Of a stretch of 64,000 nt of DNA, positions 6,455 to 34,584 are shown one piece after another. Below the pieces are notes generated by a model that had not been told where the DNA came from, ran no database searches, and worked only from the letters and a program-made list of their open reading frames with translations. Positions within the stretch are counted from its first letter, which is position 1. Every line of letters starts with the position of its first letter. The stretch is from Fervidobacterium changbaicum (GTDB lineage: Bacteria; Thermotogota; Thermotogae; Thermotogales; Fervidobacteriaceae). The DNA lies in NCBI RefSeq assembly GCF_004117075.1, contig NZ_CP026721.1:682001-746000 (forward strand). Direction: 5' to 3'. The position numbers and the translations under genes are program-made.

Positions 6455-8762
6455 GAACCACATTGATGACTTTCTGGAAATTTTGACGTACGAAAAGAGA
6501 TTCTGGAAGGATTTTTGGGACAGACTTCCGTTTAAACCAATAACCGAAAATTACGCAAAGCGTTTTGAAAACTTCTACGACAAACTTTCCAAGATATCAC
6601 GGAACGAGTTGACCGAATTTTCGCACGTTTATGAAGAACAGAAAGAAAAGCTCAAGGAAGAACTATCCATAAGGATTCGAAAGAATGCTCGGAATTTGGA
6701 ATTATCGCGTGAAGATTTTGTTGTCTATCTCATTGCTGGAATTGGAGAAAAGGATTGGGTAGTCGTTGACGGCAAACACGAAAAAGTTATAGTTTTCGAT
6801 GTATTCTCACTTTGGAAGAAGGGAAAGTTTTCGCAGCTTTCTGATGCTGTGTATCAAGCAGTTGTTCATTTTAGACACGGGGATATGGAAGGAGATTATT
6901 ACGATAAATCCGAGATTTTCTCAAAACTGAAAGAAGAAATCACAAAGCTTGATAACGAAAACCTTCTGCAAAATATTTGCAAGTTACTGGATAAGAATGT
7001 TCCGTACTACAACTGGACGGGGTTTTATTTGATGGATGAGAAAGAGGATGGCATCCTTGTTCTGGGACCGTACGTTGGTGAACCTACAGAGCACGTGCGA
7101 ATACCCGTTGGAAGAGGAATTTGCGGACAGGCTGCTGCGACGAAATTAACCTTTGTTGTTCAAGACGTGAGCTCAGAGACCAATTACCTTTCCTGTAGCC
7201 CTCATGTAAAAAGCGAAATCGTGGTTCCAATACTAAGAAACGATGGAAGCGTTTTCGGGGAAATCGACATAGATAGCCACTTCAAGGCACCGTTTGATGA
7301 GAGGGATACGGAGTTCTTGGAATGGATAGCTAAACAGCTGCTCGTGAGGGTAGTGCATTGGAAAGATTTTGAAAGAAAAATCAAAATTGCGTACCTAGAT
7401 AGTTATCTCTCGTTTATACTCAATGAAATAGTTAAATACAATATACCTTTCGACGTAAGCCTTTACGTTCACCATGATCCCGAAAAAGTTCCAGAGAATC
7501 TCTACAAAATTTGGAGAATAGCTAGAAAGCTACGCAACGCCAAAGTTCATAAAATAGTGGTAGTTGATAATGTTGATGAACAAAAAGCAGAAATGAGAGC
7601 AAACCTTGGAGGTTTCTTGTTAAGTTACCAAGATTTGCAACGGCCCGTTCCAGAAATCATACGGAAGATGATCGTTGAAGGAGTTGAAGAGATCTCAAGA
7701 GTGCTCTTTTTCATACACCATAACGCAACGAGATTAGCTCAAAGCTTTGTGAACACAAGGATAATCACAGAGTACGTTTTAAAACCTGAGAGCAATGTTA
7801 ACACGATTCTTTACGCATTCCTAACCGGCATAACCGCAGGTTACTCAGGTTCTTTTAATAGAGCGATGTTCTTCTACTACACCGATGGTCAATTCGTCTT
7901 TCAAAAAGCCCTTGGTCCTCGAAGCGAAGAGGAGGCACGCAAGATTTGGGAAGCGATTGAGGATATAGAACTGAATATGTCAGACTTTTTGGAGACGGTT
8001 TCAAAAGATTTCAGGTCGGCATTGGAATCGGTCTACGAAGGAAAAATCATAAGGCAGGATGAAATAACACAATACCTTGATGGTGAACCTCACATAGTTG
8101 CAAAAGGCGATTTACCAAAAATCGCTGAGGAGTTCGATATTGTAAATGAGTTCGCAGTTATGGCCCTCAAAAGTGGCAACAAGTTCGTCGGGTTGCTTTT
8201 AGCTGACAATAATTTCGACCGAAAGCCTATTTCCGACTACCAACTCGCAGTGCTCAAAGACCTTGGTAATCAGATGGTGCTGGTTCTTGAAAACAAAAGG
8301 TTCCTTGAAGCCATAAAAGAAAAGGCAGAAATAGATGCTTTAACAGGTCTGAGGACCCGCAGGTCGTTGGAGGAGTTCATTGCAAGTTCTCCCGTAGGAC
8401 AGTTTTCAGTCGCATTTTTGGACTTGAATGAATTTAAGCTCATTAACGATATGTACGGGCACGAAAGAGGGGACGAGGTACTTAAAAAGTTAGGAAAGTG
8501 CATAAATTTGAATATAAGAAAAGAAGATTTGGCGTTCAGATACGGTGGGGACGAAATCGTACTGATTATCAAGTCTGTTGAAAAAGAGGTTGTCCGAAAG
8601 GTTATTGAGAGAATTTCCGAGTGTTTCGCTAGAGCAACCGAATTGTCTTTCTCAACAGGTGTGGCACTTTATCCTGAAGAAGGGGATATTTACAAGGTTT
8701 TGAAACTCGCAGATGAAAGAAGTTACAAATCCAAAATCACAGGAAAAATAGAGTTTGAGTAA
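6438..8762 (+). CDS. Diguanylate cyclase with fRMsr-like GAF domain
   Basis: A 774-residue protein without membrane segments. The start is taken as ATG 6438, five bases after GAGGTGA; a GTG at 6429 lies inside that site. Residues of about 165-310 form a GAF domain very like free methionine-R-sulfoxide reductase (NWTGFYL, LGPYVGEP, VGRGICG, LSCSPHVKSEIVVP, DIDSH). A second GAF-like region (about 440-620) precedes the C-terminal GGDEF domain. The signature there is GGDEI, and the inhibitory I-site RKED lies five residues before it, so c-di-GMP synthesis with product inhibition is expected. No EAL domain is present. It is probably a redox or ligand sensor controlling c-di-GMP. Confidence 0.85.
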   Translation: MRSLIENHIDDFLEILTYEKRFWKDFWDRLPFKPITENYAKRFENFYDKLSKISRNELTEFSHVYEEQKEKLKEELSIRIRKNARNLELSREDFVVYLIAGIGEKDWVVVDGKHEKVIVFDVFSLWKKGKFSQLSDAVYQAVVHFRHGDMEGDYYDKSEIFSKLKEEITKLDNENLLQNICKLLDKNVPYYNWTGFYLMDEKEDGILVLGPYVGEPTEHVRIPVGRGICGQAAATKLTFVVQDVSSETNYLSCSPHVKSEIVVPILRNDGSVFGEIDIDSHFKAPFDERDTEFLEWIAKQLLVRVVHWKDFERKIKIAYLDSYLSFILNEIVKYNIPFDVSLYVHHDPEKVPENLYKIWRIARKLRNAKVHKIVVVDNVDEQKAEMRANLGGFLLSYQDLQRPVPEIIRKMIVEGVEEISRVLFFIHHNATRLAQSFVNTRIITEYVLKPESNVNTILYAFLTGITAGYSGSFNRAMFFYYTDGQFVFQKALGPRSEEEARKIWEAIEDIELNMSDFLETVSKDFRSALESVYEGKIIRQDEITQYLDGEPHIVAKGDLPKIAEEFDIVNEFAVMALKSGNKFVGLLLADNNFDRKPISDYQLAVLKDLGNQMVLVLENKRFLEAIKEKAEIDALTGLRTRRSLEEFIASSPVGQFSVAFLDLNEFKLINDMYGHERGDEVLKKLGKCINLNIRKEDLAFRYGGDEIVLIIKSVEKEVVRKVIERISECFARATELSFSTGVALYPEEGDIYKVLKLADERSYKSKITGKIEFE

Positions 8763-8796
8763 TCGGAGTTTAAACATTTCTCAGGGAGTGAACGAT

Positions 8797-10590
8797 GTGA
8801 AGACAAAAGATATGTCGGAAGAGAAGGAAAGAAAGAAAAAATCAAGTGTGTTCTTAAGGCTACTAAAATATGCCCTCCCCTATTGGCATCTTTTGGCACT
8901 GGCAATAGTTGTGGTGCTTGTTCTCACGTACCTATCACTTCTGCCTCCACAAATTGTAAGGAAGGCTATAAACACTTACATACTATCAGATACGCTACAA
9001 ACAGCTGAAAAAATAACGGGAATATCTAAGCAGGCGCTCCTGTTCTTGATGGTTTCTGGGGGAATATTCCTCTTTGAGTACCTTTCCATACTCGTAACTA
9101 CGTACATTGGCGGCCGTGTAGTTTACGATGTTAGAAGGCAGCTTTACGACCATGTTCTGAAACTCCCGATGTCCTTTTTCGATAGACATCCCAGCGGGCA
9201 GATAACAACAAGAATAACAAGCGATACACAAAATGTGCAAGAATTCTTTACTTCGGTGATAACAAGCATCGTTAACGACGTTTTTTTGCTCGTCGGTGTA
9301 ATTATCATGATGTGGAGCATCAGTTCACGGCTCTTTCTTGACATTATCTACGTCTTCCCCATTATCATCGTTGCAATGGCAGTTTTCAGATACTTCGATA
9401 TTCGAGCATACCGTGCAGTAAGAACAAACATCGCTCGAATTAATGCGTACATCGCTGAGAATTTAGCCGGAATGCCTGTAACAAAATTGTTCAACGCGGA
9501 AGGATACAAAAGAAAAGAGTTTGACCAAATAAACAGAGAACTCTACAAAGCCCGTATGAACCAATTGTATGTGTTTGGTATATTCAGACCGCTGATTAAC
9601 TTTTTGTACTATCTCACTCTCTCCCTCATCATCTGGTTTGGCTCAAAGTACATCTTAGGTAAGATTCTTAATTTTGGAGACCTCTACGCTTTCGTGTCTT
9701 ATATCGACACATTCATGAGACCTATCGAAGACTTGTCTGAAAAGTACGATATCATACAAAACACTATCGCAAGTGGTGAAAAGATCTTCGCACTACTGGA
9801 CGAACCCCAAGAGGAACAAGGTAGTTCGGATGGGAAAAAGACCATAGAAAAAGGAACGATAGAATTTCAAAATGTGTGGTTCAGTTACGACAACAAACGC
9901 TGGATTTTGCAAGATGTGAACCTTTCTTTTATCCCTGGAGAGCTTGTTGCAATCGTTGGGGAAACAGGAGCAGGTAAAACTACAATAATGAACCTCATAA
10001 ATGGAATGTATAGACCTCAAAAAGGAAGGATTTTAATCGACGACTTGCCGCTGGAAGAATACGATATTCACGCTCTGAGAAAGCAGGTCTCCGCTGTTCC
10101 TCAGGATGTTGTGCTGTTCAGTGGAACGCTCTTAGATAACATCCGCCTCTTCCACGATGAAATATCCGAGAAAGAAGTGTACAAGGCTCTTGAGAAGGTT
10201 GAAGCGCTGGAGATTATACAGAGGTTGCCAAAGGGCATATACACTGAAATCGTTGAGAGGGGAAAAGGTATCTCCGCTGGTGAAAGGCAGTTGATAGCAC
10301 TTGCCAGGTCTGTGCTTTTTGGTGCTAAGATTTTCATACTCGACGAAGCGACAAGTAATATCGATGTGGAAACAGAGCACAGAATTCAGAAAGCAGTAAG
10401 GGAACTGTCCAAAGATAACACTGTAATAATGATTGCGCACCGACTTTCTACAGTAGTCAACGCAGACAGAATTGTTGTCGTTGCCGACGGGAGGATTGCA
10501 GAGGAAGGAAGACATTTCGAGCTTTTGAAAAAGAAAGGTGCTTACTACAAGCTTTATGAAATCCAATTCGCTAAAGAGGAGACAGCGTAA
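8797..10590 (+). CDS. ABC exporter, fused membrane and ATPase domains
   Basis: A 597-residue half-transporter. The GTG at 8797 is chosen because AGGGAGTGA lies eight bases before it; a TTG overlapping the previous gene is possible. The N-terminal part has about six membrane helices (residues 20-310), with the intracellular loop motif DRHPSGQITTRITSD. The ATPase domain has GETGAGKTT (Walker A), a degenerate signature ISAGERQ in place of LSGGQ, FILDEATSNID (Walker B) and AHRLS (H-loop). Such proteins work as dimers exporting lipids, peptides or drugs. The only ABC subunit in this operon, so a homodimer or a partner elsewhere is needed. Substrate unknown. Confidence 0.9.
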   Translation: MKTKDMSEEKERKKKSSVFLRLLKYALPYWHLLALAIVVVLVLTYLSLLPPQIVRKAINTYILSDTLQTAEKITGISKQALLFLMVSGGIFLFEYLSILVTTYIGGRVVYDVRRQLYDHVLKLPMSFFDRHPSGQITTRITSDTQNVQEFFTSVITSIVNDVFLLVGVIIMMWSISSRLFLDIIYVFPIIIVAMAVFRYFDIRAYRAVRTNIARINAYIAENLAGMPVTKLFNAEGYKRKEFDQINRELYKARMNQLYVFGIFRPLINFLYYLTLSLIIWFGSKYILGKILNFGDLYAFVSYIDTFMRPIEDLSEKYDIIQNTIASGEKIFALLDEPQEEQGSSDGKKTIEKGTIEFQNVWFSYDNKRWILQDVNLSFIPGELVAIVGETGAGKTTIMNLINGMYRPQKGRILIDDLPLEEYDIHALRKQVSAVPQDVVLFSGTLLDNIRLFHDEISEKEVYKALEKVEALEIIQRLPKGIYTEIVERGKGISAGERQLIALARSVLFGAKIFILDEATSNIDVETEHRIQKAVRELSKDNTVIMIAHRLSTVVNADRIVVVADGRIAEEGRHFELLKKKGAYYKLYEIQFAKEETA

Positions 10591-10592
10591 AG

Positions 10593-11489
10593 ATGCTCCT
10601 GAGGGCTTCTTACTGGACATGGAAATTGCTTAACGGGGAGTCAATCCCTGATGAAATGCCAACTGCCTATCTTATGCTTGATGGAAAATGCATGTACAAC
10701 TGTGCTTACTGTACACATGCAAAAGATTCCGAAAGTGACAACTCTTATTTATCAAGAATAGTGTGGAAAATAGTAAACGTGGATAGTTTGAATTCAGTTA
10801 GTTCCAAGTTCAAGCGAGTTTGTATCCAAACGGTCAATTACAAAGGATATCTTGATGATATAATTGAAGTGATTAAACATCTCAGGTCTTCAAATGAAAA
10901 CAACGATTTACTCATATCCGTGTCTACACGAGTTAAGAACGAAGAAGAAATCGATACACTCATGAACTCAGGAGTAGACGATTTAGGGATGGCCATCGAC
11001 GTTGCTTCTAAAGGGTTTCATATGCTATATCGCTCATGGCCTCTCGAATATACGTTATCTTTGATTCGATACGGTGCAAGTAGGTATCCAGGAAGAATAA
11101 CTACACACATTATCGTCGGGCTTGGCGAAACGGACAGAGAGCTTTATGAAATATTTAAACTGATGAAATCTTACAACGTCAAAATTGCGCTCTTTGCTTT
11201 TACACCTGTCAGAGGCACGAAATTGGCTCATCTGTCGCCACCATCTATTGAAAGATACAGAAATATACAGCTCCTTAGATTCCTTATCTTCGAGGCAAAT
11301 CAAAAACCAGATGTCGATTTCGATGAATTTGGAAATTTGAAGTCTGTAAGATTTGACAGCTCTATCGATGTATCCAAGGCATTTCTAACATCCGGATGCA
11401 CGCACTGTACAAGACCATATTACAACGACAGCCCGAGAAGCAAGGTACTGTACAATTATCACGTTTTCAAAAACTCGGAAAGTAGATAG
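10593..11489 (+). CDS. Radical SAM protein, biotin synthase-like
   Basis: A 298-residue protein with the radical SAM cluster motif CMYNCAYC near residue 29. A barrel follows, with glycine-rich GLGETDRE typical of biotin-synthase-like members. A C-terminal CTHCTRPYYND motif could hold a second cluster. It begins two bases after the transporter stop, so it is translationally linked to it. The reaction is unknown. Thermotogales carry stand-alone genes of this type, and BioB itself is excluded by length and by missing motifs. Confidence 0.75.
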   Translation: MLLRASYWTWKLLNGESIPDEMPTAYLMLDGKCMYNCAYCTHAKDSESDNSYLSRIVWKIVNVDSLNSVSSKFKRVCIQTVNYKGYLDDIIEVIKHLRSSNENNDLLISVSTRVKNEEEIDTLMNSGVDDLGMAIDVASKGFHMLYRSWPLEYTLSLIRYGASRYPGRITTHIIVGLGETDRELYEIFKLMKSYNVKIALFAFTPVRGTKLAHLSPPSIERYRNIQLLRFLIFEANQKPDVDFDEFGNLKSVRFDSSIDVSKAFLTSGCTHCTRPYYNDSPRSKVLYNYHVFKNSESR

Positions 11490-21594: not shown

Positions 21595-22800
21595 TCAAAC
21601 AACTCCTCCTGAACTCTTGGAAATAAACAAACTGTACTTTGGCACAAAAACAAGGTAGAAAATTAGGCCACTTATCGAAACTACAAGTCCTTCAAATACA
21701 CCAAGCAACGATGGACCAAGGTACTGTATGATAGCCGCTCCCAAAACAGGACTGATTATCCTCATGAGACTATCAACGGAATTGAACACTCCCAGCGTTC
21801 CGCCAAGTTTTTCCCTCTGGACAGACTTTGTGACAAGTGAGCTTAAAGATACACCAATCAACGCAGAAGTCATGGCAAGAGGACCTAAAAACAACAAAAG
21901 TGTAAAAACATTAGCAGAAAGCGAGTATAAGAGCAAGAAGAGAGATGCTATGAATATCACCGCCTTAATAACGTTATCCTCACTGTACTTCTTGGTGACC
22001 TTACCAACCAAAAACCCTTGAGTGAACACGATAGCCAAACCAACGTAAGCCAACACATAGCTTGTTGTAGAAAGCGGAAGGTTCAATTTCTTCATTGCAA
22101 AGAGCGAAAAGGACGATTCAAACATCGTAAAACCAAGTGAGTAGAAGAGTTTAACAAGGACTAAAGAACCTAAGTGCGGCATAGATATAGTTTTTTTGAG
22201 CTCTTCAAAAGTGAATGGGACTCTCTTTGAATCTTGGGCTGGTTTCGAATCAGGCAAAAGAAAAATGATATTCAGCAAATTGACAAAAGAGAGTCCAGCG
22301 GCAAAGAATGCAGGTACCGAAAATCCCCATCTGCTCAAGAAACCACCTAAAGCTGGGCCCAATATGAAACCCAGTCCAAAGGCAGCTCCTATTAAACCCA
22401 AACTTTTCGCCCTGCTCTTTTCATCTGTGAAATCTCCGATGTACGACTGCGCAACGGTAATATTTCCTCCGGTCAGACCATCGATCAGTCTCGAAATCAA
22501 AACAACAAGCACCGATCGGGCAAGTCCGAGTGTTATCAAGGACAAAAACGTACCACCCACACTTAAAAGTAGCGCTTTTTTTCTTCCCACCTTATCGGAA
22601 AATCTTCCAATCAATGGTGCTGCAAAAACTTGTCCAAGTGGATAAACCATTGCTAACAACCCTATCATTAGATCACTTGCACCAAATTGCTTAACATAAT
22701 ACGGCAGCAGAGGGATTATGAGTCCAAAGCCAAGCATGTCCGCTAAGACGATGAAAAACAGTGTCGTTATAACCTTTCTCTTTTGTAGTTCGCCTTCCAT
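21595..22800 (-). CDS. MFS drug exporter, TetA/DHA1 type
   Basis: A 401-residue protein with 12 membrane segments. The motif GRFSDKVGRKKALL is the MFS motif A between helices 2 and 3, and RLIDGLTGGNITVAQSYIGD resembles TetA-type exporters (motif C: LGFILGPALGG). AAGGAGC lies upstream of the ATG. Proton-driven export of a drug or metabolite is likely; the substrate cannot be read. It has its own strong promoter with a palindrome at the start site, as in repressor-controlled exporters, but no repressor gene is next to it. Confidence 0.85.
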   Translation of the reverse strand: MEGELQKRKVITTLFFIVLADMLGFGLIIPLLPYYVKQFGASDLMIGLLAMVYPLGQVFAAPLIGRFSDKVGRKKALLLSVGGTFLSLITLGLARSVLVVLISRLIDGLTGGNITVAQSYIGDFTDEKSRAKSLGLIGAAFGLGFILGPALGGFLSRWGFSVPAFFAAGLSFVNLLNIIFLLPDSKPAQDSKRVPFTFEELKKTISMPHLGSLVLVKLFYSLGFTMFESSFSLFAMKKLNLPLSTTSYVLAYVGLAIVFTQGFLVGKVTKKYSEDNVIKAVIFIASLFLLLYSLSANVFTLLLFLGPLAMTSALIGVSLSSLVTKSVQREKLGGTLGVFNSVDSLMRIISPVLGAAIIQYLGPSLLGVFEGLVVSISGLIFYLVFVPKYSLFISKSSGGVV

Positions 22801-26421: not shown

Positions 26422-27498
26422 TTGAGATTCATCGTATTTGGACTTTTCATACTGATTTCAATTGCGTACGTTATCTCCGGAAGAAAGAGAATTTTACATT
26501 CGAAAAACGATTATGAAGACTTAGTCAACGATACAAAGATTTCTGTTATTATACCAGCCCGCAACGAAGAGCAGAACTTGAAAAAGCTTTTACCGCTGAT
26601 ATTAAATCAAACGATAAAACCGTTCGAATTAATCGTTGTTGACGATAACTCCACAGATGGAACATATTCAGTTGCGTCAAGCTTTGAGAACGTGAAGGTT
26701 ATTAGACTAACCGAAGAACCACCTAAAGGATGGGTAGGAAAATCCTGGGCTATATGGAACGGGTTTTCCAATTCTTCTGGCAATTATTTATTGTTTCTTG
26801 ATGCTGATGTTGAACCTGAGCCAGTCCTAATTAGCTCTCTTATCCAGCGTTACAGGGAAAAGAGTGGTTTGATAACAGTATGGCCATACCAACGGTTCGA
26901 AAGATTTTACGAGCATTTGACACTACCATTCAACTTGCTTGTCATTTACGCAAGTAATAATCTTGGATTTCCTTCAAAGGAACCTTCCGGAGCATTTGGA
27001 CCTGTAATTTTTACATCAAGAAAAGACTACGAGATGGTCGGAGGACACGAAGCGATTAGAGATAGTGTTCTTGAGGATATAAAACTTGGGAAATTGTACC
27101 TGAGGAGTGGATTGAAAGTCACAAATTTTCTTGGAAACAACACTGTCAAATTCAGAATGTATCCGAATGGGATAAGACAGCTTTTCGAAGGTTTTTCGAA
27201 AAATATGTCATCTGGGGCAATAACGGCAGGTATTCTTCCATTTGCTTTATCTATTATATGGATGTCGGGGGTGTATTCATCCATAAGTACTGCTTTTAGT
27301 ATAGAAGGGGCCGTGCGTTATATGGTGACCGCTTTAGCTATTTATGTAATGGCTAAGCCTACCGGTGATTACAAATGGTATGACGCTATCTTATACCCCG
27401 TGCATTTTTTGTTTTTCCTAATCGTGTTTTTCTACTCCCTTTATCTGACAATTTTCAAAAAGCAAGTATCATGGAAAGGGAGGAAGATAAATGTTTGA
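26422..27498 (+). CDS. Membrane glycosyltransferase family 2 (CrtQ-like)
   Basis: A 358-residue protein starting at TTG 26422, eight bases after AAGGAGG; no ATG fits. One N-terminal membrane segment (1-19) is followed by a GT-A domain: SVIIPARNEEQNL, VVDDNSTDGT, FLDADVEPEP (DxD type) and a later VLEDIKLGK acidic motif. The C-terminus carries about three membrane segments and ends WKGRKI. This layout matches GT2 enzymes that glycosylate membrane isoprenoids or lipids, for example CrtQ of the staphyloxanthin pathway. It is the first gene of an eight-gene operon and overlaps the next gene by eight bases. Confidence 0.8.
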   Translation: MRFIVFGLFILISIAYVISGRKRILHSKNDYEDLVNDTKISVIIPARNEEQNLKKLLPLILNQTIKPFELIVVDDNSTDGTYSVASSFENVKVIRLTEEPPKGWVGKSWAIWNGFSNSSGNYLLFLDADVEPEPVLISSLIQRYREKSGLITVWPYQRFERFYEHLTLPFNLLVIYASNNLGFPSKEPSGAFGPVIFTSRKDYEMVGGHEAIRDSVLEDIKLGKLYLRSGLKVTNFLGNNTVKFRMYPNGIRQLFEGFSKNMSSGAITAGILPFALSIIWMSGVYSSISTAFSIEGAVRYMVTALAIYVMAKPTGDYKWYDAILYPVHFLFFLIVFFYSLYLTIFKKQVSWKGRKINV

Positions 27499-28129
27499 TA
27501 AGACTTTTTTATCTTACTTAACAATAATATTTGTCCAGTTTCTTTCTGGAAGCATCATGTATTCTTACATAATTGCCCGTTTATTAAAGATTGACCTCAG
27601 AAAGGTTCGCGATGGTAACCCTGGTTCTACAAATCTTTGGAGGGCGGCAGGTTGGAAATTGGGCTTTCTTGCGCTTGCACTTGATTATTTCAAAGGTGTC
27701 TTTCCACTTGCATTGTTTGCTTGGAATGCCCGGGTAGAGATTAATCCCTACGTGGTTAGCGTAGCTGCGTTGGCTGGTGTTGCCGGACATGCTTTCTCAC
27801 CAATGCTCCGGTTCAAAGGAGGAAAAGCGATAGCAACAACTTTCGGTGCTTGGTCTGTATTGACCAAATGGGAAGGTCCGATGGTGCTTGGTATTACGTT
27901 TACATTGTTCTCTGTGGTAAATAAGCTCAGAGGAAAAAGAGGGACAACACCAGAAGAAGATACCTTGCGTGTTTTTATAGGTTTTTTCTTTTTGCTCATA
28001 TATACAATATGGAAAGTTTTCAACGGGTCCCCAGAATTAATAGTACTTTATTTTGGGAACCTAATAATTGTTGCTTACAAACATAGAAGGGAGATATTTA
28101 AACTTATCGAAAAGAGGGGAGAAGCGTGA
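27491..28129 (+). CDS. PlsY-like acyltransferase, divergent
   Basis: A 212-residue membrane protein with the three PlsY signatures: GNPGSTNLWRAAG (usual form GNIGATN), LDYFKG and GHAFSPMLRFKGGKAIATTFG. PlsY transfers acyl from acyl-phosphate to glycerol 3-phosphate. The changes in the first and last motif, and the position between a glycosyltransferase and lipid-modifying genes, suggest a dedicated acyltransferase rather than the housekeeping PlsY. The stop overlaps the next start (GTGA). Confidence 0.8.
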   Translation: MFDKTFLSYLTIIFVQFLSGSIMYSYIIARLLKIDLRKVRDGNPGSTNLWRAAGWKLGFLALALDYFKGVFPLALFAWNARVEINPYVVSVAALAGVAGHAFSPMLRFKGGKAIATTFGAWSVLTKWEGPMVLGITFTLFSVVNKLRGKRGTTPEEDTLRVFIGFFFLLIYTIWKVFNGSPELIVLYFGNLIIVAYKHRREIFKLIEKRGEA

Positions 28130-28869
28130 GGAAGAGCTTGATTTTAGTTGTTTTTGCTCTTTTGATCAGCGGTTCACTGCCTGGAAATAACATCGAAGGT
28201 TACGAAAAAGTGTTTACTCAGGCTCGTTCTTTGAAAAGCGAGACGCAGTTTTCAAATTTGATAAAAGAGTTTGAAAATGTACTCTCAAAAAACAACCCGG
28301 TCAAAGATACAGAAACACTCAAAGTAATACTATCTGAATCATATTTTGAATATTCGGAGATAGTATCAGACAGGAAGAAGAAAGAGGAACTTTTGAGAAA
28401 GGCACTAGAACTTTCTGAAGATGTGATTAAATCAAACCCACAAAATGGCAGAGCGTATTATGTAGCAAGTATGTGCTATGCCAGACTCATCGACTTTGTG
28501 AACGTGTTTATAAAACTCGATTATTTAAATCGGTTCGATAGATACATTGATAATGCGATAAGATTCTCAAATGATGAGCTTTATAAAGGCTTATCTTACA
28601 TGGCAAAGGCTGTGCGCTACATGTCAGCACCTTGGCCGTTTAGTGATACCAAGGTAGCTTTGGAGAATTTCAAAGAAGCAGAAAAGTACATAGCAAATTA
28701 TTCAGGATTGTATCTATACTTGGGAGAACTCTACCTGAAATTAGGTGACAAAAAAGCAGCTGAAAGTGAATTAAGAAAAGTCCTTAACTTGCCGCCTCAT
28801 CCTTACTTTTTAGCTCAACATGAAAATAACGTCAAGCTAGCAAAGCAGATGCTTGCAAACTTAAAGTGA
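28126..28869 (+). CDS. Exported TPR-like protein
   Basis: A 247-residue protein beginning with GTG 28126, which overlaps the preceding stop. A signal peptide (about residues 1-20) is followed by helical repeats: KAQ-rich segments, GRAYYVASMCYARL and YLYLGELYLKLGDKKAAESELRKVL, the last a clear TPR unit. It probably sits outside the cytoplasmic membrane and binds a partner of the pathway. No enzyme motif is visible. Its tight coupling to plsY-like and ICMT-like genes argues for a role in the same process. Confidence 0.7.
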   Translation: MRKSLILVVFALLISGSLPGNNIEGYEKVFTQARSLKSETQFSNLIKEFENVLSKNNPVKDTETLKVILSESYFEYSEIVSDRKKKEELLRKALELSEDVIKSNPQNGRAYYVASMCYARLIDFVNVFIKLDYLNRFDRYIDNAIRFSNDELYKGLSYMAKAVRYMSAPWPFSDTKVALENFKEAEKYIANYSGLYLYLGELYLKLGDKKAAESELRKVLNLPPHPYFLAQHENNVKLAKQMLANLK

Positions 28870-28887
28870 AAAGTAAGGGGGATGGTT

Positions 28888-29433
28888 ATGCGCTATCTAT
28901 TTTGGATATCAATCGTAGCTTGGTGGATAATGGATTTCTGCGTTCTTGTTCTAAGAAAAAACATTTATTCAAAAGTGCTCGACAAAAGGAGTAAGTTCAT
29001 AGTTATCGGGCTTATTTTGATAGGGGTATTTTTAGCAATTGTACCAGAAGATTTCAGAGCGGTTTGGAGAACGAGGGAATTCGGGCCATTCCAAATATTC
29101 GGTACGTTCATCGTTATGCTCGGTGTGACGATTAGACTCTTAGCGATCATAAGCTTGGGTGAGTATTTCTCTGGAGATATAGTTGTCGGACCAGATAAAA
29201 AGCTCGTTCAGAGGGGATTATATAAGAAAATCAGGCATCCGAGTTACACAGGCGAGATAGTAGCATTCCTCGGTCTAGGGATCGTATTCCAGCATATTCC
29301 ATCTTCTATTTTCATATCTGTCTTTCCCTTCTTAGCGTTCTTATACAGAGCAATTATTGAGGAAAAGAAACTGCACGGGGAATTTGGAGATGAGTTCATC
29401 GAATATAAAAAGAGAACAAGGATGTTCATATGA
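28888..29433 (+). CDS. Isoprenylcysteine/phospholipid methyltransferase-like membrane protein
   Basis: A 181-residue protein with about five membrane segments. ATG 28888 is preferred; ATG 28882 touches the AGGGGG site. The C-terminal half holds the ICMT/PEMT signature: RGLYKKIRHPSYTGEIVAFLG, then EEKKLHGEFGDEFIEYKKRTRMFI, shared by SAM-dependent methyltransferases acting on prenylated or lipid substrates in the membrane. The stop TGA (29431-29433) is formed by the insertion sequence; without it the stop would be TAA at the same place, so the protein is unchanged. Confidence 0.8.
   Translation: MRYLFWISIVAWWIMDFCVLVLRKNIYSKVLDKRSKFIVIGLILIGVFLAIVPEDFRAVWRTREFGPFQIFGTFIVMLGVTIRLLAIISLGEYFSGDIVVGPDKKLVQRGLYKKIRHPSYTGEIVAFLGLGIVFQHIPSSIFISVFPFLAFLYRAIIEEKKLHGEFGDEFIEYKKRTRMFI
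29424..29431 (+). repeat. Target site duplication, left copy
   Basis: GTTCATAT, repeated at 30473-30480, on either side of the insertion sequence. Confidence 0.9.
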
Positions 29434-30472
29434 TCCTGTTAACTTGTAGTGATGGAAGACAATAGAACACAGATAACACGCGCAATATCATTGTTGTTCA
29501 GTTTCAAGAGATTTCTCACTACACAAAAGCTGTTCACGTACATTGGAAGATTGTCAATATTCTTAAATCCACGCTTGGCTCGTACAAAGTCTTGGAATAA
29601 CGAAAACTTCGATTCACATTGATTGTTTTGCCCAAGTCTCACAACAATATGATTGATATTCTTGTATAGTATCTTCACTGCACCATATGCACCAAGTCCA
29701 TCTGTAATTAGTTCGATTGTTCTTTCGTTGTTACCAAAGAACTTCTCTAACAATATCTTCACTTGACCCATATCGCGATATTTGGATACATGCCAAGCAA
29801 CAATAAGATTCGAATCGTGCTCAACTAAGAACCAAACGTAGTACTTTTTGGATTTAAACAAAACGACAGTTTCATCACCATGGACTTTGAAAGCATCTAC
29901 AGGAACGAGGATGGAAAAGAAACAAGACAACTTAAGGATCCACTTGTAGATAGCGACATGAGAGACTTTGATATTAAGTGAGTCTCTGATGGAACGCAAG
30001 GACACAGCTTTGAAATAAAGGACGAAGGCTTTAAGGACAATAAAGATAGGGAAACGGAAGAACTTGAAAGAGTCGAAAGGAAGAGGGACAAATTGAGGTA
30101 AGTTAGTTGGGATTTCGTCTCTGGTATGGCAAGAACGGCAACGGAACTTAACGAAGGCTTTTTTGATTTTGTGGATTTGCATAGTTTTTCCACAGACAGG
30201 GCATTTAGGATAAGGGAAAGAGAAGAGCTTGTGTTTTTTTGAATGAACAAGTCTGAAAGTGCGCTTACAGTCTTTGCAAAAGTATTGTTGGTTACCGTAC
30301 TTATCATGACCGTTTTTGTAGATGTTGGTAGAGCCGCATTTGGGGCAAGAGACTACAGAATTTTGCATAGTGGAGTACCTCCTTTTTGTGAGAATTGATG
30401 GTGGGGGGTGTTCCACTAATAAGAAGATAATACGGTTTTTGGAAATTTTCAATACTTTTAGTTAACAGCATC
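29432..30472 (-). mobile_element. Insertion sequence, IS6-like, 1041 bp, with 8-bp target duplication
   Basis: The ends are inverted repeats of 13 bases with one mismatch: GATCCTGTTAACT at 29432-29444 and, reverse-complemented, GATGCTGTTAACT at 30460-30472. Both sides are flanked by the direct repeat GTTCATAT. One transposase gene fills the element. The CTGTT in the ends and the 8-bp duplication fit IS6-type elements; an IS1595-like element also makes 8-bp duplications and is the alternative. The perfect duplication shows a recent insertion. Confidence 0.9.
29439..30368 (-). CDS. Transposase, DDE type with N-terminal zinc ribbons
   Basis: A 309-residue protein; the ATG at 30368 follows AAAGGAGG, and a longer in-frame reading is rejected. 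Two zinc ribbons lie at the N-terminus (CPKCGSTN with CKDCKRTF; CPVCG with CRSCH). The catalytic triad is visible in VHGDET (Asp), ITDGLGAYG (Asp) and NNQCESKF (Glu). The spacing and the closing RAKRGFKNIDN fit IS6/IS240-like DDE enzymes. The gene is intact and transcribed against the surrounding operon. Confidence 0.85.
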   Translation of the reverse strand: MQNSVVSCPKCGSTNIYKNGHDKYGNQQYFCKDCKRTFRLVHSKKHKLFSFPYPKCPVCGKTMQIHKIKKAFVKFRCRSCHTRDEIPTNLPQFVPLPFDSFKFFRFPIFIVLKAFVLYFKAVSLRSIRDSLNIKVSHVAIYKWILKLSCFFSILVPVDAFKVHGDETVVLFKSKKYYVWFLVEHDSNLIVAWHVSKYRDMGQVKILLEKFFGNNERTIELITDGLGAYGAVKILYKNINHIVVRLGQNNQCESKFSLFQDFVRAKRGFKNIDNLPMYVNSFCVVRNLLKLNNNDIARVICVLLSSITTS

Positions 30473-30495: not shown

Positions 30496-31479
30496 ATGAT
30501 AAAAAATCAATGGTACGTTGTAATGTCTTCACGTGAGATAAGAAAAGGGCAATTAGTTGGTGTTACAAGATTTGGCGAGAAGCTCGCATTTTGGAGAGAT
30601 AACAAAGGTGCTGTACACTGCATATCGGATATTTGTTGCCATAGAGGAGCTTCTATATCGCATGGTAAGTTACTTCACAACGGACACGTTGCGATGTGCC
30701 CGTTTCACGGTTTTGAGTACGACCCAACAGGCAAAGTGGTCGCTATCCCCGCAAACGGTAGAAAAACCCCTGTTCCTGAGAATTTCAAAGTAAAGTCTTA
30801 CAGAGTGCATGAGACGGCAGACTTTATTTGGCTATGGTACGGCGATGATGAACCAAAAACTTTTCCAAAGTATTTCGATGATATAAGCGATGATTTATCA
30901 TACAGTGAATTTAGTGAAGTATGGAACGTGCACTATAGTAGAGCTATTGAAAACCAGTTGGACCCTATCCACGTACCTTTTGTACACTACAATACCATTG
31001 GAAAAGGAAACAGAACTGTTGCAGATGGCCCCATTGTTAGGTGGATTGATGATACGATGTTTTATTTCTATGTCTTTAACAGAGTAGACGATGGGACACC
31101 GGCCAAAAGACCCGATGAACTTAAGATAAGCGATGCAAGTAAAGTCTACTTAGAGTTCAAGTTTCCTAATATTTGGCAAAATCACATTGACGAAAAGCTA
31201 CGAGTGACCGCAGCATTTGTGCCGATAGATGATGAACATACCAAAATTTACCTTAGATTCTACGTTGGATTCACCAAGGTAAAGTTTCTTGATAAACTCA
31301 TCGCCATCTTAGGAACACCGTTTAATAAAAAGGTGTTACACCAAGACAAAGCCGTTGTTGAAACTCAAATACCAAAGAGGTCTGAACTCAGGATGTCGGA
31401 AAACCTCATCAACGGAGACCTGCCGATAATTGAATATAGAAAGAAGAGAGAAGAACTGAAAAAAATTAATAACGTTTAA
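30496..31479 (+). CDS. Rieske non-haem iron oxygenase
   Basis: A 327-residue protein. The N-terminal Rieske domain has CCHRGAS (C-x-H) and CPFHGFEY (CxxH), the complete 2Fe-2S ligand set. The catalytic domain has ENQLDPIHVPFVH (about residues 152-164), which holds the conserved D and the DxxHx4H mononuclear iron site of Rieske oxygenases; length fits single-component VanA/KshA-like alpha subunits. GGGGGGAG lies before the ATG, and the insertion sequence ends 23 bases upstream. Such enzymes need O2, which is odd in an anaerobic lineage. No reductase gene is adjacent; it may use ferredoxin from elsewhere. Substrate probably a lipid or isoprenoid, by context. Confidence 0.88.
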   Translation: MIKNQWYVVMSSREIRKGQLVGVTRFGEKLAFWRDNKGAVHCISDICCHRGASISHGKLLHNGHVAMCPFHGFEYDPTGKVVAIPANGRKTPVPENFKVKSYRVHETADFIWLWYGDDEPKTFPKYFDDISDDLSYSEFSEVWNVHYSRAIENQLDPIHVPFVHYNTIGKGNRTVADGPIVRWIDDTMFYFYVFNRVDDGTPAKRPDELKISDASKVYLEFKFPNIWQNHIDEKLRVTAAFVPIDDEHTKIYLRFYVGFTKVKFLDKLIAILGTPFNKKVLHQDKAVVETQIPKRSELRMSENLINGDLPIIEYRKKREELKKINNV

Positions 31480-31506: not shown

Positions 31507-31989
31507 ATGTCTGAAGAAAGAAAACAGAAACTTGGTGCTCAAAATGATTCGGAATACGCGATAACCTCGTTGGAGCAACTAATACAACTGTGGACAAAAA
31601 CATACAACCACGAAGGCAAGCCCGACTGGTCACACCTACTACCTTTTTACGATGAAAACATACACTTTAGAGACACTGTACAAGAGATACACGGAATAGA
31701 AGAATTTAAAGCCATGGTTGAACGCCTAACAAAGCGTTCTCAAGAGTTGCACATGAATATTCTGAACGCGGTTATGGAAGGTAACGTTATCTTCGTCGAA
31801 TGGGATATGATAATTAACTTCAGAAAAACAAAGACGTCGGTGGTACACGGTGCAAGCAGGCTTATTCTGAACGAGAAAGGTAAGATAATAGACCAAAGAG
31901 ATTACTACGACCTCTGGGGTGATATATTCGACAACATCCCTGGATTCGGAAAACTTTATAGGAAGTTCATGAAGAAGGTGTTTGGATGA
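31507..31989 (+). CDS. SnoaL/NTF2-like protein
   Basis: A 160-residue protein with the cone-shaped NTF2-like fold pattern: LWTKTYNHEGKPDW, FYDENIHFRDTVQEIHGIEEFKAMV, then VIFVEWDMIINF and GASRLILNEKGKIIDQRDYYD. Such domains act as isomerases, cyclases or lipid/steroid binding proteins. AGGAGTG precedes the ATG. It overlaps the SDR gene by four bases (ATGA), and the pair also occurs next to FAD-dependent oxidoreductases in lipid-modification loci of Proteobacteria, as far as I recall. Confidence 0.75.
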   Translation: MSEERKQKLGAQNDSEYAITSLEQLIQLWTKTYNHEGKPDWSHLLPFYDENIHFRDTVQEIHGIEEFKAMVERLTKRSQELHMNILNAVMEGNVIFVEWDMIINFRKTKTSVVHGASRLILNEKGKIIDQRDYYDLWGDIFDNIPGFGKLYRKFMKKVFG

Positions 31990-32966
31990 GCAAAGAGTTT
32001 AACGGCTGTTCAGTAAGAAGGTATTGGCCGCAATACAGATGGTCAAATATATTTGAAATGATACGAAATATGTCGAGTCGGCCAAAAACTTGCAAGCAGC
32101 GATTTGACGACAAGCTCGTTGTAATTACCGGAGCTACTTCTGGTATTGGGTATGAAACAGCTAAAAAGTATGCAGCCAGCGGTGCACGTTTGATAACAAT
32201 AAACCGAAATAAAGAAAAGTCGGAAAAACTGTGCCGAGAACTTGCTGAAAAATACAACACTGATTGTGAATACATTTTAACTGACCTCAGCAAGCTAAAG
32301 GATATCTTAAACGTTGCAGAAAAATTGAACTCTTTGAATTCTAATATCGACGTGTTAATTCACAACGCAGGTCTTTATCTTAACAAGAAAGTTTTAACTG
32401 AAGATGGGCTTGAGATGAACTTTGTTGTTCATTACCTTGCACCATTCATAATAAATTACTTACTAATGGAAAAGTTGAAGAGAGACAACTCCACCCGAAT
32501 AATACTTGTCAGCTCCGAAGGATACAGATTTGCAGCCTGGGGGATATGCTTGGATGATTTGAATTGGGAGAAGAGAAAGTATTCTGGTTTAAAAGCTTAC
32601 GGAACAGCCAAACTCGCTCAAATCTTGAGTATGCACATTTTTGCACAGATATTTAGTTCAGAGAAACTTAAAATCACCATAAACGCTATGCACCCGGGGT
32701 TTGTAAAAACCAACACGGGACAGGATAACGGACCAGTGTACAAGTTTTTCAAAAAGCATCTGCTTGATAGACTCTCCAGAGAACCAGCAGAATCAGCAGA
32801 AGCTCTTTATTATCTGGGAGTTTCCAAAGAAGTGAGTAATGTGAGTGATGAATTTTTTCACTACACCACCATCGAAGAACTCGCCCCACCTGCCAAAGAC
32901 ATGGAATTAGCTCAGATGCTTTGGGATAAGACTCTTCAGATAATAAAAGAAAAGTGTGGATTTTAG
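31986..32966 (+). CDS. Short-chain dehydrogenase/reductase
   Basis: A 326-residue protein with about 35 extra N-terminal residues. The classical SDR features follow: VITGATSGIGYETAK (NAD(P) site), HNAGLY, LVSSEGYR (catalytic Ser) and YGTAK (catalytic Tyr/Lys). Relatives include retinol dehydrogenase-like enzymes, which act on membrane lipids or isoprenoids. ATGA overlap with the preceding gene and close spacing to the next show one transcription unit. Confidence 0.88.
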   Translation: MSKEFNGCSVRRYWPQYRWSNIFEMIRNMSSRPKTCKQRFDDKLVVITGATSGIGYETAKKYAASGARLITINRNKEKSEKLCRELAEKYNTDCEYILTDLSKLKDILNVAEKLNSLNSNIDVLIHNAGLYLNKKVLTEDGLEMNFVVHYLAPFIINYLLMEKLKRDNSTRIILVSSEGYRFAAWGICLDDLNWEKRKYSGLKAYGTAKLAQILSMHIFAQIFSSEKLKITINAMHPGFVKTNTGQDNGPVYKFFKKHLLDRLSREPAESAEALYYLGVSKEVSNVSDEFFHYTTIEELAPPAKDMELAQMLWDKTLQIIKEKCGF

Positions 32967-32979
32967 AGAGGTGAAAAAG

Positions 32980-34584
32980 ATGCCTAAAAAACGAGAAAAA
33001 AAGGTGTTAGTAGTTGGTGGTGGAATAGCTGGTCTTACGGCAGGCGTATACCTTGCAAAGAAAGGCTACGATGTTAAGGTGATTGAGAAATACGAGAAAT
33101 GTGGAGGGTTGGTCAACACCTTCGAATACGAAGGTTTTAAACTGGAAGGCGGTGCTCGCGCACTTGTAAATGCTGGTGTAATTATCCCTATGATTGAAGA
33201 CCTTGGCTTGGACATAGAGATTTTAAGAAATCCAATCTCCGTAGGTGTCGAAGACAAGATAATGCGTGTTACTGACACCAGAAGCTTGGAAGAGTACGGA
33301 CAACTTTTGAAACAGTTATACCCTCAAGCAGAAAAGGAAGTAGATGAGCTCATAAGAGTCGAGAAAGAGATACTTGAATACATGAAAATCCTTTACGGAG
33401 TCGACAATCCGCTGTTTTCTTTCAATAAAATAAAGGAAGAAGGTAAGTTACTCGAAATGATGCCAAGATACCTTCTTTGGTTTTTTAAATTCTTGAAGAC
33501 CGTTAAGAAAATCAACGAATTAAACGACCCTGTGGAAGAATATATATCAAGATTTGTCAAAAATCCTTCGTTGAGGGATATTGTGATTCAGCACTTCTTC
33601 AGGGGAACTCCTTCATTCTTTGCATTAAGTTATTTCTATCTGTATCTCGATTACATATACCCAAAAGGTGGCGTGGGCACCTTTCCGCAAAAACTTGCCG
33701 AAAAAATTACTGAACTCGGAGGTCAAATCCTTACTAACACTGCAGTCACAAAAGTTATTCCGTCGAAAAATATAGTTATCGACGATAAAGGTAATTCACA
33801 TGAATACGATGCAATGATATGGGCTACAGATCTTAAAACGTTCTACAAAATCCTCGATACAACAGCGCTATCAAATTCTTTGGTAAGTAAATTAGAAAAA
33901 GAAAAACAACGTGTACTAAAGGCCCGAGGTGCAGAGTCGGTACTAACTTTTTACTTAGGTGTAGATGAACCCGTCGAAACGTTCGCTAAAATCTCAACTG
34001 GACATTTCTTTTATACGCCTCTTAGACAAGGTCTTGGCGAACTTAATCGCTCAAAAGTTAAATACATAGTGAAAAACTACGAAAATCTGAGCAAAAAGAA
34101 AATACTAAATTGGCTCGAGGATTTTATCAAATTCAATACTTATGAAATATCGATCCCGGCGTTGCGAGACTTATCGATGGTACCCGAAAACAAGACCGGT
34201 TTGATCGTGAGTATGTTATTTGATTACGACGTTGTTAAGAAGATAAGGGACGATGGTTGGTACGAAGAATTCAAACAAAAAGCGGAGGAAATGATTATCG
34301 ATAATCTCGCCAGCACGATATATCCATTCTTAAAAAACAAAATACTTTTCAAATTCACCTCGACGCCTTTGACAATTGAACGAATTTACGGAACTTCGGA
34401 TGGCTCGATTGTAGGATGGTCTTTCGAGGATCCCATTCCCGTACCTTCCGGTATGTTCAGCATGAAATCAGCTATAAGAACACCGATTGACAACATATAC
34501 AAAGCGGGAAAATGGGCATACGCACCAGCAGGTGTGCCAACTGCAATAATTACGGGGAAATTGGCAGCGGATGTGATAAAATAG
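32980..34584 (+). CDS. FAD-dependent oxidoreductase, CrtI/phytoene desaturase-like
   Basis: A 534-residue protein; ATG 32980 lies after GAGAGGTGA, and a longer in-frame reading is less likely. N-terminal FAD site VLVVGGGIAGLTAGVYLAKKGYDVKVIEK in parts (GGGIAGLTAG, then EK), LEGGARAL, and a C-terminal NIYKAGKWAYAPAGVPTAIITGKLAA resembling the FAD-closing motif of carotenoid desaturases and retinol saturases. It is about the size of CrtI/CrtN. The product cannot be named; a desaturase, saturase or isomerase of an isoprenoid or fatty acid is expected. It is the last gene of the operon. Confidence 0.85.
   Translation: MPKKREKKVLVVGGGIAGLTAGVYLAKKGYDVKVIEKYEKCGGLVNTFEYEGFKLEGGARALVNAGVIIPMIEDLGLDIEILRNPISVGVEDKIMRVTDTRSLEEYGQLLKQLYPQAEKEVDELIRVEKEILEYMKILYGVDNPLFSFNKIKEEGKLLEMMPRYLLWFFKFLKTVKKINELNDPVEEYISRFVKNPSLRDIVIQHFFRGTPSFFALSYFYLYLDYIYPKGGVGTFPQKLAEKITELGGQILTNTAVTKVIPSKNIVIDDKGNSHEYDAMIWATDLKTFYKILDTTALSNSLVSKLEKEKQRVLKARGAESVLTFYLGVDEPVETFAKISTGHFFYTPLRQGLGELNRSKVKYIVKNYENLSKKKILNWLEDFIKFNTYEISIPALRDLSMVPENKTGLIVSMLFDYDVVKKIRDDGWYEEFKQKAEEMIIDNLASTIYPFLKNKILFKFTSTPLTIERIYGTSDGSIVGWSFEDPIPVPSGMFSMKSAIRTPIDNIYKAGKWAYAPAGVPTAIITGKLAADVIK

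Follow-up and report, generated by a model that had tools for sequence, protein, structure and literature searches.

Rieske non-heme iron oxygenases (ROs) are commonly regarded as enzymes of aerobes. What, then, does one of them do in an anaerobic lineage? The question is raised by a gene at positions 30496-31479 of the window, the whole 64,000-nucleotide stretch of the Fervidobacterium changbaicum genome that was analyzed. An earlier note, correct in placing this RO in an anaerobic lineage, had offered three options for it: use of O2 under micro-oxic conditions, use of O2 in oxygen defence, or an unusual O2-independent reaction.

The encoded protein (327 aa) contains the Pfam domains Rieske (3e-24) and VanA_C (4e-13), both above their curated cut-offs. 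The 2Fe-2S ligands are C47-x-H49 and C68-x-x-H71, the expected CxH and CxxH pairs. The mononuclear iron site is D156-x2-H159-x4-H164 together with D284, and alignment predicts a 2-His-1-carboxylate site with D156 as the bridging Asp. D284, part of an LHQDK motif, lines up with the Asp in the NdmA and NdmB motif 'vl.eDk.vve.q' and by that alignment is the third carboxylate. None of these eight residues varies among the 64 family members used for the tree. The four cluster ligands and the DxxHx4H motif reported in the earlier note are thus present and conserved, and the loss of the third carboxylate that it had named as refuting is not seen in the alignment with NdmA or in any of the 64 relatives. 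This conservation rules out a relic or pseudogene, as the note had argued. The AlphaFold2 model (pLDDT 86, pTM 0.86, with loop 164-171 beside the iron motif uncertain) predicts the Rieske and catalytic-domain fold and matches the solved ROs GxtA, SxtT, DdmC and NdmA with TM values of about 0.7-0.77. SxtT and GxtA (SxtDIOX), NdmA and DdmC have the same fold, size (about 330 aa) and metal ligands, but identity in the structural alignment is about 20% and the genomic context differs. The protein scores 80 bits against the SdmA 4beta-methylsterol monooxygenase model (NF052579; curated cut-off 600), which places it outside that group. A complete RO is encoded here, and it is the sole Rieske protein found in its own genome (a single contig of 2.27 Mb).

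Relatives with 43-86% identity occur mainly in anaerobic lineages, the anaerobic lifestyle of the carriers being partly assumed from lineage. Homologues were found in 18 of 61 Thermotogota genomes and, at a match cut-off of 1e-40 in class samples that include draft assemblies, in 12 of 291 Clostridia (about 4%) and 24 of 249 Anaerolineae (10%). None of the 36 matches passing that cut-off is weaker than 1e-81, suggesting a gap between this family and other ROs. Further homologues come from Caldisericum, Bacteroidales, Fibrobacteres, Acidaminobacter, Eubacterium aggregans, Clostridium and Butyrivibrio records. Genes at eight GC-rich loci were placed with tblastn. Eight Caulobacter loci match residues 1-164 only, at 37-38%, and were handled as outgroup. 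In the tree, the 64 members stand apart from the eight other ROs sampled with moderate support (82/72); tested against the same eight, Q154, W227 and N229 mark the family. The RO belongs to an uncharacterised family, sampled here almost entirely from oxygen-avoiding bacteria. One Thermotogota genome (G031; loci L055 and L068) has two copies in differing contexts, with 79% and 53% identity to the window RO. In a Chloroflexi copy (L016:8001-8960), the first Rieske cysteine, C47, is replaced by Arg (DVRPH), which may reflect decay of the gene or an error in the sequencing; the locus was excluded from the 64-member set.

Thermotogae homologues are not new as such. As far as its available text goes, a 2017 survey already lists proteins of F. 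pennivorans, T. africanus and T. maritima (PMC5209329). These probably belong to the same family. In that text, substrate guesses are drawn from the nearest characterised ROs, DdmC being named for the F. pennivorans protein (PMC5209329). Following the survey, the RO could be a catabolic or xenobiotic O-demethylase or hydroxylase of the VanA/DdmC kind whose neighbours are there by chance. The VanA_C domain and the DdmC assignment agree with this, but identity to the other ROs sampled is only about 24-38% and genes of aromatic catabolism were not found in the RO neighbourhoods examined, so this role seems unlikely. The available survey text carries no mention of the light and UV linkage or of the glycosyltransferase-acyltransferase module discussed below, and among the papers listed as joining Rieske proteins with heliorhodopsin, LitR/CarH, photolyase or light induction there was nothing on this family.

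The features of the window that bear on function are as follows.

21595..22800, minus strand: MFS exporter; clusters (c5/n5) with the exporter 3' of RO in Anaerolineae; Tet-like MFS models below cut-offs
26422..27498, plus strand: GT2 glycosyltransferase, HpnB/CruG-like; Pfam Glycos_transf_2, NCBIfam HpnB/CruG below cut-off
27491..28129, plus strand: PlsY-type acyltransferase; Pfam G3P_acyltransf 5e-36
28126..28869, plus strand: TPR protein; kept near RO in several Thermotogota
28882..29433, plus strand: ICMT/PEMT-like methyltransferase; immediately 5' of RO in G007 and G002 (L052, L057)
29432..30472: IS6-like element, 1041 bp, with transposase at 29439-30452, minus strand; 8-bp duplication GTTCATAT, near-matching ends, transposase family
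30496..31479, plus strand: RO, 327 aa; Pfam, ligand conservation, AlphaFold2 fold match
31507..31989, plus strand: SnoaL/NTF2-like protein; Pfam SnoaL_2 3e-12
31986..32966, plus strand: short-chain dehydrogenase (SDR); Pfam adh_short 3e-28
32956..34584, plus strand: CrtI-like FAD oxidoreductase/desaturase; Pfam Amino_oxidase 4e-23, NCBIfam crtI_fam 4e-26, below cut-off

The RO heads an RO-SnoaL-SDR-CrtI-like gene order that is tightly packed, with 27 nt between RO and SnoaL and overlaps of 4 nt (SnoaL/SDR) and 11 nt (SDR/CrtI-like). The GT2, PlsY, TPR and methyltransferase genes lie upstream, with the same orientation and almost no space between them. The IS6-like element separates the methyltransferase from RO; when its flanks are rejoined the gap is 20 nt, and in the related genome G007 the gene order is continuous with no IS. 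Before the insertion, RO directly followed GT2-PlsY-TPR-methyltransferase. This conserved operon on both sides of RO is an addition to the earlier note. It is uncertain whether the MFS exporter of the window belongs with it, and a promoter scan gave no more sites than shuffled sequences. A transposase of the same cluster as that of the window's element also lies directly before RO in G008 (L054).

Homologues of GT2 and PlsY occur near RO in three phyla: at most Fervidobacterium-type loci, in Caldisericum (L006) and in Anaerolineae (L134, L136, L138, L148). One MFS exporter group is also common to Thermotogota and Anaerolineae RO loci. The GT2 and PlsY partners point to a lipid substrate. The SnoaL-SDR-CrtI trio is not essential, since it is missing from some relatives in which RO occurs with GT2-PlsY.

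The trio has parallels elsewhere. Its SnoaL-SDR-FAD order is that of the phrB clusters of Salinivibrio and Aeromonas, of the LitR-controlled phrB-SDR-FAD-UfaM cluster and of R. sphaeroides RSP1087-1091. The latter two have been tied to light or singlet oxygen (PMC9758184, PMC7380195). For example, genes of the phrB-SDR-FAD-UfaM region were reported to be light-induced in P. mendocina (PMC9758184). The window SnoaL is clearly homologous to the NTF2 protein encoded 3' of phrB in Salinivibrio (31% identity, 4e-17), whereas the SDR and FAD proteins resemble their counterparts at the superfamily level only; the first neighbour of the trio is RO in the window and a photolyase in the phrB clusters. 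In R. sphaeroides, RSP1087-1089, which from gene sizes and order would be the SDR, SnoaL and FAD genes, are dispensable for furan fatty acid synthesis (PMC7380195). The window operon is not a furan fatty acid (ufa) cluster, with UfaO (DUF1365) and UfaM/UfaD absent among the RO-operon proteins scanned, and no CFA-type gene was found in it.

The CrtI-like protein brings carotenoids to mind. Pathways of the staphyloxanthin type combine a CrtI-like enzyme, an oxygenase, a GT2 and an acyltransferase, and the window genes resemble them in logic only. Phytoene/squalene synthase (PF00494) is absent from all 46 Thermotogota genomes searched, that of the window included; carotenoids are therefore unlikely in Thermotogota, and a carotenoid substrate or carotenoid cluster is disfavoured.

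The source of electrons may be a shared one. No reductase adjoins RO, as the earlier note had remarked, and no dedicated one was found in the genome. The sole FAD_binding_6 protein found there lies 3' of ORFs resembling NqrE and NqrD and looks like the NqrF subunit encoded in a Na+-NQR operon. No FAD_binding_6 protein was found in the RO carriers G004 and G031, which rejects an NqrF-like protein as the dedicated reductase. A general ferredoxin, rubredoxin or flavoprotein may supply the electrons instead.

More is learned from the neighbours of RO in other genomes, and the wide, mainly anaerobic family and its link to light and UV genes also go beyond the earlier note. A co-directional DNA photolyase gene adjoins RO in Anaerolineae L018, L019, L136, L143, L145 and L150, upstream in some loci and downstream in others; in L148 the photolyase beside RO is, by its coordinates, a short fragment. 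UvdE lies 3' of RO in Thermotogota L058, L060 and L064 and in Clostridia L127 and L128, and a pyrimidine-dimer glycosylase gene is two genes further on in Thermotoga-type genomes. In L134 (4586-5899, Anaerolineae), RO, heliorhodopsin and Staygreen (Mg-dechelatase family) follow in a row. MerR-B12 regulators of the CarH/LitR type are found 2.6-5.5 kb upstream of RO in L136, L138 and L143, that of L138 falling short of the CarH model's cut-off with 157 bits. Oxygen-related genes occur as well: a flavodiiron protein gene precedes RO in L125, and hemerythrin is 3' of RO in L009 and, by similarity, in L010. TspO is encoded within the RO operon of L063, with a weak TspO-like gene in L136. Many copies, chiefly in Clostridia, have unrelated neighbours. 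The linkage to photolyase, UvdE and photoreceptors holds across relatives and not at the window's own locus, where no light or UV gene is found among the neighbours.

Counts over genomes agree with this linkage. Photolyase is present in 13 of the 24 RO-carrying Anaerolineae and adjoins RO in 5 of the 13; a crude random-placement estimate for this adjacency is 4e-12, and co-occurrence has p 0.025 (Fisher), shared ancestry being ignored in both. Heliorhodopsin occurs in 8/24 Anaerolineae carriers vs 18/225 others (p 0.001), and UvdE in 6/12 Clostridia carriers vs 54/279 others (p 0.02), again by Fisher tests that ignore shared ancestry. None of the 12 RO-carrying Clostridia has a photolyase. Since RO genes repeatedly adjoin genes for repair of sunlight damage and for light sensing, the family is suggested to protect anaerobes that meet air and light.

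Protection might take the form of clearing phototoxic tetrapyrroles, the RO oxygenating a porphyrin in the manner of plant pheophorbide a oxygenase so that light and O2 yield no singlet oxygen. A tetrapyrrole substrate is possible, given Staygreen two genes after RO in L134, the TspO gene of L063 and the weak TspO-like gene of L136. However, Staygreen does not track RO, being present in 1 of 24 RO-carrying Anaerolineae and also in genomes lacking RO, and the GT2-PlsY partners indicate a lipid, so tetrapyrrole clearance is quite improbable. The RO might also simply spend reductant to remove O2, with a product of little significance. ROs are slow and normally substrate-gated, which does not suit a scavenger, and the conserved biosynthesis-type partners would be left unexplained. 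Plain scavenging thus has a small chance of being right, even with the flavodiiron protein in L125, the hemerythrins in L009/L010 and the finding that T. maritima, an anaerobe of the Thermotogota, can meet and consume O2 (PMC3065215). Least probable is an O2-independent or peroxide-driven reaction, which would suit hosts mainly of anaerobic lineages and draws on the peroxide shunt known in some ROs, since the ligands are identical to those of O2-using ROs and some of the neighbouring genes are ones needed in air and light.

Among the options of the earlier note, then, micro-oxic O2 use or oxygen defence is best supported, because genes for O2 detoxification and for light damage are among the neighbours of the family in other genomes; the O2-independent reaction finds no support. 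The reading tentatively preferred, at a little under an even chance, is an active, O2-dependent RO mono-oxygenase in the gene set with which anaerobes face air and light, most likely hydroxylating a hydrophobic, membrane-borne substrate. O2 use, the stress role, the substrate and the order of steps are what we infer from metal sites, fold match, operon layout and gene linkage, with gene neighbourhood as the functional link. On exposure to air and light, the RO would use O2 to hydroxylate a membrane-borne acyl or isoprenoid chain, which the CrtI-like, SDR and SnoaL proteins may desaturate, oxidise and remodel. A sugar would then be added to the new hydroxyl by GT2 and an acyl group by the PlsY-type enzyme, yielding a protective glycolipid. 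Lipid hydroxylation in air and light is the simplest account of the intact predicted catalytic site and the gene context. More doubtful is the broader proposal that several phyla of fermentative anaerobes share a light and O2 programme in which RO, GT2 and the PlsY-type enzyme make an undescribed protective glycolipid with O2 as substrate. An RO group sampled mainly from anaerobes, with its active site fully conserved and with ties to light and UV genes, would imply that anaerobes retain a biosynthetic step that consumes O2 when they are briefly in air and sunlight. The substrate guess is testable, and the carriers include culturable Clostridium and Eubacterium.

Two further loci have distinctive neighbours. 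In L061 (10070-11026), a tocopherol-cyclase-like gene (PF14249) comes right after RO in a Thermotogota genome lacking phytoene synthase. In L065, two genes (8655-9377 and 10327-10740) with no Pfam family above cut-off flank a Thermotoga RO and are kept in four loci.
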